Below are positions 15,904-18,387 of a DNA stretch of 35,126 nt, piece by piece. The notes under the pieces were generated by a model. The model was given only the letters and a program-made list of their open reading frames with translations. It was not told the DNA's origin and did no database searches. Source of the DNA: Candidatus Bathyarchaeota archaeon (GTDB lineage Archaea > Thermoproteota > Bathyarchaeia > Bathyarchaeales > Bathycorpusculaceae). Every line of letters begins with the position of its first letter. Positions within the stretch are counted from its first letter, which is position 1. The translations under genes and the position numbers were made by a program. The stretch is from NCBI GenBank assembly GCA_029907545.1, contig JARYLR010000015.1, forward strand, positions 1-35,126. The letters run 5' to 3'.

Positions 15904-15953
15904 GTCCCATCAACCACATTGAACGATGTTTTCAGACTGTTCCTAGGAAAGGT

Positions 15954-15963
15954 AAATATACAC
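15954..15963 (+). promoter_or_regulatory. TATA box of the TPP-riboswitch / thiT operon
   Basis: GGTAAATATACAC is about 20-30 nt before the first riboswitch helix, so transcription would begin near 15975-15985. The aptamer is then essentially the whole leader. Confidence 0.5.
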
Positions 15964-15974
15964 ATAGATAACAA

Positions 15975-16080
15975 TTACCCTTCCGGAGGCTAGGGGAGCT
16001 GGGTAAGTGACCCGGCTGAGAGGACGGTTGAAAACCGCCGACCCTTAGAACCTGAACCAGATAATACTGGCGGAGGGAAA
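15975..16080 (+). promoter_or_regulatory. TPP (THI-element) riboswitch controlling thiT
   Basis: The sequence matches the conserved TPP aptamer block by block: TAGGGGAGC at 15991, GGCTGAGAGGA at 16014, ACCCTTAGAACCTGAACCAG at 16041-16060, and ATAATACTGGCGGAGGGA at 16061. Helices seen are P2 TAGGGG/CCCTTA, P3 AGCTGGGT/ACCCGGCT, an extra hairpin CGGTT/AACCG, and P5 CCAG/CTGG. The 3' conserved GGAGGG is also the Shine-Dalgarno sequence of thiT (GGAGG 16072-16076, 8 nt before GTG 16085). TTACCCTTCCG (15975-15985) is complementary to CGGAGGGAA (16071-16079) with two bulges. Translational control is inferred: TPP binding should hide the ribosome-binding site and shut off uptake. Bacterial and some archaeal thiamine genes are known to carry this element. 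Confidence 0.93.
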
Positions 16081-16084
16081 AAAT

Positions 16085-16642
16085 GTGGAAAAAAGTGAAA
16101 AGGCAATTTCGCAAACTAAAGTTCTTGCTGAAGTCATAGTTTTCGCTGCGTTATCAGCTGGTTTGTACGCCATACGTCCATATTCGCTTCCATATGGCGG
16201 TTCAATAACTCTAGGCAGTATGGTTCCAGTGATGTGGCTAGCCTTAAGGAGAGGCGTAATCGCGGGATTCATCGCTGGAGCAATTTTCGGGTTGATAGCG
16301 CTTCCAATTGACATCATGCTTCTTCCATATTCGCCAATTACAAATCCAATACAAGTTTTCCTTGAATATCCTATCGCTTTCGGAGCACTTGGACTGGCTG
16401 GAATCATTCATAGGCGTTCAGTAGCATTTGCGATTGTTGGAGTTGGAATAAGCATATTTGTTAAATTTCTCTTGCACGTAATTGCTGGCGTAATCTTTTG
16501 GGCTTGGTCGATTCCTCAAGAGTGGAACCCAGTTGTTTACGCAATCGTTTACAATGGCAGCTTCTTACTTCCAGAATTCATAATCAGCGCCATACTGATG
16601 TATATACTTGTTAAGAAGAAAACTTTGGAATACGCACTCTAA
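16085..16642 (+). CDS. thiT: thiamine ECF transporter S component (ThiT-like)
   Basis: A 185-residue integral membrane protein with six predicted spans. The signature GGSITLGSMVPVMWLALRRG follows the first span. The remaining features (VFLEYPIAFGALGLAG, FVKFLLHVIAGVIFWAW with the aromatic residues that bind thiamine, and VYNGSFLLPEFIISA) match ThiT. It binds thiamine and passes it to a shared EcfA/EcfT energising module, which is not in this window. The start GTG 16085 is 8 nt after the GGAGG ribosome-binding site buried in the riboswitch. An out-of-frame ATG at 16083 overlaps it by one base. The KaiC-like gene follows after 14 nt, so the riboswitch may influence the whole operon. Confidence 0.9.
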   Translation: MEKSEKAISQTKVLAEVIVFAALSAGLYAIRPYSLPYGGSITLGSMVPVMWLALRRGVIAGFIAGAIFGLIALPIDIMLLPYSPITNPIQVFLEYPIAFGALGLAGIIHRRSVAFAIVGVGISIFVKFLLHVIAGVIFWAWSIPQEWNPVVYAIVYNGSFLLPEFIISAILMYILVKKKTLEYAL

Positions 16643-16656
16643 TTTGGGGAAAACAA

Positions 16657-17385
16657 ATGGTGAAACTGAAAACAGGCATCGATGGACTCGACCAACTTAT
16701 TGGCGGCGGTATCGTGTCGGGTTCCCGCAACATTCTCTACGGGCCGCCTGGCACGGGAAAAACAGTTTTTGCTATGCAGTTTCTTTGGCAGGGCTTGAAG
16801 CAGGGAGAGACGGTTGCCTACGACATCATGGATAAGCCGTTTCCACGTTTAATAGCCTACTTCAAGTCTTTCAGATGGGACATCGAACCTTACATTGACA
16901 GGGGCAAGTTCATAGCGATACAGGCTTTCCCGCATTATGCGCCCTACCCGAAGGATCCACGAGTGATCTACTTCAGTCTGGAAGACTTCGAGGAAATGAA
17001 GCGCATTGACAGACTTATCTCTGAAAAACATGTAACACGGTTTGCTGCAGGAGACTTCAGCGAGCAACTGTTCTCCATATATGATATCAAGTACATGGAG
17101 CCGATTGAGGACTGGACGATTAACTGGTGCCACTTCGACGACATAGTCAACATTGACATAATGACGGCGGCAACACAGAAGGATACAGCGACGCAGAGAG
17201 CCACAGATCTGGATCTTAACAAGGCGCATAACATTTTCTACTTTAGATTTAACCGTGAGAAATGTCAACGAGAACTTCGCATCGTGAAGATTGAGGGTTG
17301 CAGTCACCCGTTGGAGTGGATTCCCTTCGAAATAAGTGGCAAAGGCATAAATCTTCTGCTGACAAGCAAGGCTAAGCGGAGATAG
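16657..17385 (+). CDS. KaiC/RadA-like RecA-fold ATPase, probably catalytically degenerate
   Basis: A 242-residue single KaiC-type domain. The N-terminus KLKTGIDGLDQLIGGGIVSGS is the family start, followed by Walker A GPPGTGKT (residues 29-36). The usual catalytic Glu pair after the next strand (Y-x-x-x-E-E) is replaced by YDIMDKPFPR. Walker B is also weak (VNIDIM). It may therefore bind but hydrolyse ATP poorly. Single-domain archaeal KaiC proteins are usually linked to signalling or regulation. It lies 14 nt after thiT with a GGGG ribosome-binding site before the ATG. Its stop abuts the next ATG (17386), so the three genes form an operon downstream of the TPP riboswitch. Confidence 0.85.
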   Translation: MVKLKTGIDGLDQLIGGGIVSGSRNILYGPPGTGKTVFAMQFLWQGLKQGETVAYDIMDKPFPRLIAYFKSFRWDIEPYIDRGKFIAIQAFPHYAPYPKDPRVIYFSLEDFEEMKRIDRLISEKHVTRFAAGDFSEQLFSIYDIKYMEPIEDWTINWCHFDDIVNIDIMTAATQKDTATQRATDLDLNKAHNIFYFRFNREKCQRELRIVKIEGCSHPLEWIPFEISGKGINLLLTSKAKRR

Positions 17386-18387
17386 ATGGGAAAACTCTCA
17401 ACAAAAGACCTAAAAAAACTGCTCGACTGCATCAAAAAGGATGGGCGAGTAGTTATCCCGCCTACGCCAGGATTCGATTCAGGCGTTCACTTGCTGGATG
17501 ACAACTATGTTGTCGTCTCAACAGACCCCTGTCTCGGCGTTCCCGAAAAATGGTTCGGCTACCTGCTGATACACTACGCGGCATCAGATGTTGCGCTTTT
17601 CGGAGCCAAACCCGAGTTCTGCACCATAAACCTCCTTGGTCCGCCATCTAGCAAACCGCAGACTTTTCAGAATATAATGAAGCTTGCCTGCTCGGCGGCT
17701 GACGAGTTGCGCTTGGCGATAGTTACTGGGCACACTGGAACCTACGAAAGCGTGAAGGCGCCTGTAGGCATCTGCACTGCATACGGTACAGTTGAAAAAA
17801 ATATGCTCGTCACGCCAGCGGGAGCCAAAGCAGGAGATTGCATCTTCTGCATTAAGCCAGCAGCTTTGGAAACCATTGTCAACTTTGCATTGACAAGCAA
17901 AGACTTGGCGTCTAAGCTGTTTGGGAGAAAGCGTACAGAGGAACTGGCGGATCTTGTTCAAATGCAGAGCTGTGTTAATGAAGCGTTGCTTCTTGCTGGG
18001 ACGGGGGGTGTCCATGCGATGCACGATGCCACTGAAGGCGGATTGGTTGCAGCACTGAACGAGATGGCTGAAGTGGCAGGCGTCGGTTTCGAGATCAAGT
18101 TTGAGAATATTCCATTCAGCAAAGAAGCGCTGAAGCTGCAGCAGCATTTCAAGCTCTCTGACACTCAGTTGCTTTCCATGTCTTCAACAGGCACCTTTTT
18201 GGCATCCGTACGTGAAGAAGCAAAGACCAAGATTGAAAAAATCTTGCGACAGAGAAACATCGCCTTTAGCGTTCTTGGACAGTTCACGGCAGACACAAAA
18301 CGATTGATGTTAAAACGAGGAGTGAAGACTCTTTTTCCGAGAGTTGCGAGAGACCCTTATGGAAGAATTCTCTCGGGGAAAGTGTAG
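17386..18387 (+). CDS. AIR-synthase/HypE/ThiL-superfamily protein
   Basis: 333 residues of the PurM-like ATP-dependent fold. The N-terminal domain has GFDSGVHLLDDNYVVVSTDPCLG, then HYAASDVALFGAKPEFCTIN, the conserved helix after the nucleotide-binding Asp. The C-terminal domain begins near VHAMHDATEGGLVAALNEMAEVAG, typical of HypE and PurM. The family includes HypE (hydrogenase cofactor), ThiL (thiamine-phosphate kinase), PurM and SelD. This copy looks closest to the archaeal HypE-related proteins of unknown substrate. Its place in a TPP-controlled operon suggests a thiamine-phosphate role (inference only). Its last 31 nt overlap the convergent fdhD gene. Confidence 0.85.
   Translation: MGKLSTKDLKKLLDCIKKDGRVVIPPTPGFDSGVHLLDDNYVVVSTDPCLGVPEKWFGYLLIHYAASDVALFGAKPEFCTINLLGPPSSKPQTFQNIMKLACSAADELRLAIVTGHTGTYESVKAPVGICTAYGTVEKNMLVTPAGAKAGDCIFCIKPAALETIVNFALTSKDLASKLFGRKRTEELADLVQMQSCVNEALLLAGTGGVHAMHDATEGGLVAALNEMAEVAGVGFEIKFENIPFSKEALKLQQHFKLSDTQLLSMSSTGTFLASVREEAKTKIEKILRQRNIAFSVLGQFTADTKRLMLKRGVKTLFPRVARDPYGRILSGKV

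Follow-up and report, generated by a model that had tools for sequence, protein, structure and literature searches.

Burial of the ribosome-binding site within the aptamer core is a published mechanism of thiamine pyrophosphate (TPP) riboswitches (PMC2258182). In a 2007 survey, archaeal TPP riboswitches were reported in Euryarchaeota only, and no riboswitch class other than TPP was recorded beyond bacteria (PMC2258182). In this study, the leader of thiT, which encodes the S component of an energy-coupling factor (ECF) thiamine transporter, was analyzed in a Candidatus Bathyarchaeota archaeon (assembly GCA_029907545.1, contig JARYLR010000015.1). The window is this entire contig of 35,126 nucleotides (nt), and the genome comprises 1.46 Mb at 97% completeness. 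Judging from its sequence, the thiT leader is very probably a TPP riboswitch that represses translation by direct occlusion of the ribosome-binding site.

A cmscan search of the whole window against Rfam returned a single match, the TPP family RF00059, at 15982-16095 on the forward strand. The match spans the full length of the model (1-105) and scores 58.8 bits (E = 3e-9), above the gathering score of 54.3; the genome contains no second TPP riboswitch. The pocket sequences CUGAGA, ACCC, GAACCUGA, UAAU, and AGGGA are all present and align with those of 22 relatives, and every column invariant across these relatives is intact. The element stands in cis upstream of a thiamine gene, with 7 nt between GGAGGG and the thiT start. 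The product of this gene matches PF09515 (133.9 against a cut-off of 25.8, E = 8e-39), the equivalog model TIGR02357 (115.8 bits against 108.45), and the solved ThiT structure 3rlb (E = 2e-16); outside this genome, its closest relatives belong to Candidatus Bathyarchaeota, at 46-73% identity. A preliminary description of this DNA had placed a TPP riboswitch before thiT and suggested an Infernal run with the Rfam TPP model as a check; the RF00059 score and the ThiT assignment agree with it. The sequence before thiT is thus a genuine TPP riboswitch, predicted to bind TPP.

The ribosome-binding site lies inside this aptamer. GAGG (16073-16076) constitutes the 3' strand of P4 and is followed by the conserved J4/1 (GA). 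The genome's own 16S rRNA ends in GGATCACCTCCT, and GGAGG therefore pairs perfectly with it; the CCTCC of this tail, which terminates in CACCTCCT, matches GGAGG. As is characteristic of switches with the ribosome-binding site in the aptamer, no more than 15 nt separate the start codon (GTG, 16085-16087) from the core, whose strand is complementary to the anti-Shine-Dalgarno sequence. The spacing is conserved: 130 aptamers were read, 65 of them followed by thiT, and in 55 of the 63 thiT loci left after removing redundancy the start codon falls 4-9 nt after AGGGA, with modes at 5 and 6. The position used in the window, +6, is the commonest among relatives (24 loci). This geometry leaves no room for a separate expression platform. 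The earlier claims that the GGAGGG aptamer end is the thiT ribosome-binding site and that no such platform exists are supported; the site does sit in the 3' strand of the aptamer, but that strand is P4/J4-1 and not P1. The base preceding AGGGA is G in 52 of the 58 thiT loci with a start no more than 10 nt away; in the Rfam TPP consensus this base is U (GuAGGGA). The extra G makes GGAGG complete at the price of the fourth P4 pair, which is a G.G mismatch in the window and non-standard in all 22 aligned relatives. We read this G as a sign of selection for the ribosome-binding site at the expense of P4, which is an interpretation and not proof.

The out-of-frame ATG (16083-16085) that had been noted as overlapping the GTG by one base is indeed present. 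In the congeneric genome G137, locus L151 reads GGAGGGAAAAAATGAAAGCATCC, with the ATG at +4 in frame with its ThiT; in the window, the ATG at +4 is out of frame and the GTG at +6 is in frame. Because G137 begins its ThiT at this same ATG, the simplest view of the ATG in the window is that of a start codon that has been displaced. Competition with the GTG for one ribosome-binding site is conceivable, as is an assembly error behind the 2-nt difference responsible for the frame shift of the ATG. G137 (L151, L159) shares the promoter and aptamer of the window, and its KaiC-like neighbor is 87% identical; its ThiT is about 41% identical. Either the transporter of G137 was seemingly exchanged in situ downstream of the riboswitch, or two strains were mixed; the riboswitch is also the point at which two contigs break.

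In the Rfam alignment, P2, P3, P5, and three P4 pairs are intact in the window, with one P3 pair mismatched. Among the 22 aligned thiT relatives, helices P2-P5 are paired at 87-99%, with compensatory changes (covariation) in P2, P3, and P5. P1, the usual closing helix, is variable in sequence and lies outside the binding pocket, and the Rfam threshold can be reached without it. In the model register (15987-15991 with about 16079-16083), one of five P1 pairs is standard, so that P1 is essentially absent; the longest alternative helix found was 2 bp. A P1 involving 15975-15985, raised in the preliminary description, does not form. Over the thiT loci, P1 pairing in the deduplicated set is no better than chance (z = 0.5 relative to shuffled and -0.9 relative to swapped flanks), whereas P1 is evident in non-thiT loci (z = -4 to -9); one thiT sub-clade has kept the helix, as GGUUU/AAACC and the compensating GGUCU/AGACC (e.g., L004 and L018). 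The loss of P1 might mean that the riboswitch is degenerate, binds TPP poorly, and is now no more than a leader that supplies a good ribosome-binding site. The near-absence of P1, the P3 mismatch, and a bit score below that of most relatives are in line with such decay. However, the columns invariant in relatives are intact, P2, P4, and P5 are conserved, and the P1-less state is common to G137 and other thiT lineages and hence maintained; degeneration is accordingly a very improbable explanation.

Upstream of the aptamer, an A-rich stretch resembling the transcription factor B recognition element (BRE) and a TATA box form a predicted archaeal promoter. In 83 of 126 aptamers, the 8-mer most similar to a TATA box has its end 26-36 nt before P2, compared with a mean of 17 and a maximum of 27 in shuffled controls. 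Since archaeal TATA boxes are centered about 27 nt ahead of the start (PMC5316973), the box at 15953-15960 predicts a transcription start near 15983-15985. This position bears on the sequence CCCTTCC, which is complementary to GGAGGG and had been proposed as a competing upstream strand. If the transcript instead began at or before 15979, CCCUUCC and GGAGGG could form a two-state switch with the ligand-free RNA locked off, in which TPP would exchange one sequestered state for another or turn the gene on. Folding depends sharply on this point: RNA from 15979 or earlier locks the site with CCCUUCC (unpaired probability 0.00) and disfavors the aptamer by 8-9 kcal/mol, whereas with a start at 15981 or further downstream, P4 is formed to about 70-85% and the site is roughly half open. 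A pyrimidine-rich stretch also recurs at the equivalent place in close relatives. Such a switch nevertheless appears highly unlikely, as the TATA spacing puts the start at a point that leaves the strand mostly upstream of the mRNA, flank pairing to the site in 55 thiT relatives is no better than with shuffled flanks (0.32 vs. 0.30), and the lock would oppose ligand binding, hiding the site and breaking up P4 with or without TPP. The complementarity is therefore real but the regulatory role is not supported, and the strand was rejected as a designed or conserved RNA element because the predicted start excludes most of it and its pairing equals that of shuffled flanks.

Direct occlusion would operate as follows. 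The transcript would begin where the aptamer does, at its 5' edge. At low TPP, P4, with its 3 bp, and a loosely structured J4/1 would leave GGAGG (16072-16076) open often enough for the 30S subunit, and thiT would be made. When TPP is bound, P4/P5 would dock on P2/P3, J4/1 would become organized, GGAGG would be buried, and initiation at the GTG would stop; no terminator, anti-terminator, or separate sequestering hairpin would be required. Such repression may also affect the KaiC-like and AIR-synthase-superfamily (AIRS) genes downstream. A different scheme gives a role to the 5' strand: without ligand, AGG (15987-15989, with CU/AG) would pair with CCU (16051-16053) and open P4, and TPP would favor P4 and close the site. 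Complementarity to the conserved GAACCU is stronger in the 5' flanks of thiT loci than in shuffled flanks (z = -9.4 raw, -3.4 deduplicated), and in P1-less loci the signal was reached by 0 of 500 shuffles raw and 7 of 500 deduplicated; the pairing energy over 19 deduplicated P1-less loci is -1.96 vs. -1.30 shuffled, a weak signal. However, the complement is absent in the lineages L002, L059, L093, and L117, the signal stems partly from shared ancestry and partly from P1 where P1 exists, and the probability of this pairing in the window at the predicted start is only 0.03-0.13. Pairing by the 5' leader is thus suggestive but not convincing once deduplicated, and we consider a switch built on it unlikely.

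Several points weigh against occlusion of the site by the aptamer itself. The resemblance to GGAGGG is partly inherent in the aptamer consensus GuAGGGA, so that the motif alone proves nothing and the argument rests on the extra G together with the spacing. Of the 68 TPP aptamers not closely followed by thiT, some of which have no nearby start, 50 contain GGAGGGA as well; thus, the G may have other causes too. The missing P1 could weaken ligand affinity or dynamic range, and the TATA box is the sole basis for the transcription start. Direct occlusion remains the preferred mechanism. A more specific picture can be offered only tentatively: Bathyarchaeia may possess a minimal, P1-less thiT switch in which the mRNA starts at the aptamer edge, P4 is tuned to GGAGG, the 5' leader competes for CCU, and the operon possibly includes a thiamine or thiamine-phosphate kinase. 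If so, the sensor would be the entire switch, running the operon thiT-kaiC-like-AIRS.

Table 1. Features of the thiT locus in the window
Feature	Position	Strand	Basis or remark
Predicted archaeal promoter: A-rich BRE-like stretch TAGGAAAGG, then TATA box TAAATATA (15953-15960)	15944..15960	+	
Complementary strand TACCCTTCCGG	15976..15986	+	Most likely promoter/initiator DNA, mostly untranscribed; 16-26 nt past the TATA box
TPP riboswitch (RF00059)	15982..16095	+	P2-P5 intact, P1 essentially absent
5' strand AGGCU at the would-be P1 position	15987..15991	+	AGG (15987-15989) can instead pair with CCU 16051-16053 (anti-P4)
P4 (16051-16053 with 16074-16076) and P5 (16057-16060 with 16067-16070)	16051..16076	+	Rfam alignment
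Ribosome-binding site GGAGGG	16072..16077	+	Within P4 3' strand and J4/1
Out-of-frame ATG, 18-codon open reading frame (ORF)	16083..16139	+	Sequence; probable equivalent of the ThiT start in the congeneric genome
thiT, S component of ECF thiamine transporter, GTG start	16085..16642	+	Pfam, NCBIfam, solved structure
KaiC-like P-loop ATPase	16657..17385	+	PF06745; follows thiT in many relatives
AIR-synthase-superfamily protein (ThiL/SelD/HypE-like)	17386..18387	+	PF00586, PF02769; conserved thiT partner

The gene order thiT-(KaiC-like ATPase)-AIRS is conserved across Bathyarchaeia (L002-L008, L049, L104, L110, and others). The best NCBIfam match of the AIRS protein is thiL (74.8 bits), about equal with selD and below both cut-offs. 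A family-by-family search of the genome found no match to ThiC, ThiN, or a TPK-family kinase, and one CbiQ/EcfT-family protein is present. The organism therefore probably depends on imported thiamine, and its sole riboswitch would thus control the main supply. The AIRS protein is a candidate for the missing thiamine or thiamine monophosphate kinase step in this genome without a TPK-family match.

TPP riboswitches were found in 163 of 257 Bathyarchaeia genomes and in 69 of 398 genomes sampled in the phylum; the earlier remark that they are few in archaea is not borne out in this class. This abundance within one class is useful for distinguishing vertical from horizontal descent of the TPP riboswitch (PMC3486863). 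No publication on riboswitches of Bathyarchaeia turned up in a literature search, which is weak evidence of novelty since most subscription journals were beyond reach. The families tested at loci without thiT included ThiC, ThiD-ThiN, ThiW, a cytosine/purine permease family member (PF02133), solute-binding proteins, ECF S components, and a ParA/MinD-like ATPase. The last of these, an unexpected member of a thiamine regulon, begins directly at the riboswitch (TTGATCATAACA...) in genomes of three families (L082 749-1492, L103 789-1562, and L112). In thiC-type loci (L039, L043, L066, L081, L094, and L072), a nine-codon ORF starts at the ribosome-binding site of the riboswitch, right after GGAGGGA; the products are LNRSAFKLL, VSKGGFQLL, MNRVAFKPF, LNRSAFRFL, VNESVFRPS, and MLIVQIIKT. 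Here, thiC lies about 35-80 nt beyond the ORF, which may encode a leader peptide coupled to thiC. After ThiW, a 185-aa P-loop protein (GxxGxGKT) is encoded in TPP-riboswitch loci (L047 387-941, L051, L052, L060, and L142); the L047 protein has no Pfam or NCBIfam match. In other Bathyarchaeia families (L031, L035, L042, L055, L079, and L099), no obvious start codon is near the aptamer and many have a strong P1; the mechanism of these riboswitches may differ. L005 (JANWZY010000168.1), labelled Verrucomicrobiia, has a TPP riboswitch scoring 55.2 bits and the archaeal start layout, and its ThiT shares 62% identity with that of the window; it is probably a mis-binned archaeal contig.

In sum, the aptamer class, the regulated gene, and the logic of a ribosome-binding site within the aptamer are already known; what is new is the lineage, how abundant the element is there, the lack of P1, and the P4 tuned to the Shine-Dalgarno sequence. 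A natural translational switch can hardly be much smaller than the thiT version, whose trade of P4 for the Shine-Dalgarno sequence offers a clean test of how one strand can act both as sensor and as ribosome-binding site. The closest described system is the TPP subtype with the ribosome-binding site in the core (Barrick and Breaker 2007, PMC2258182), with which the window shares the aptamer, a start within 15 nt of the core, and the use of the purine-rich aptamer 3' end as the ribosome-binding site for translational control without a separate platform. It differs from this subtype in its occurrence in Bathyarchaeia, the near-absence of P1, the full GGAGG that costs a P4 pair, and a transcript predicted to begin at the aptamer edge. 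The thiT-type TPP riboswitches of lactic acid bacteria (L010-L014; Lactococcus RSthiT, PMC8862789) share the aptamer class and the regulated thiT, but the bacterial loci analyzed have a separate downstream stretch and a GGAGG-type site distinct from the aptamer. The Bathyarchaeia riboswitches of thiC, thiD-thiN, ThiW, and the PF02133 permease resemble that of the window in aptamer and archaeal class; unlike it, they have a significant P1 (z of about -4 to -9), and in many of them the gene is preceded by 35-150 nt of leader.
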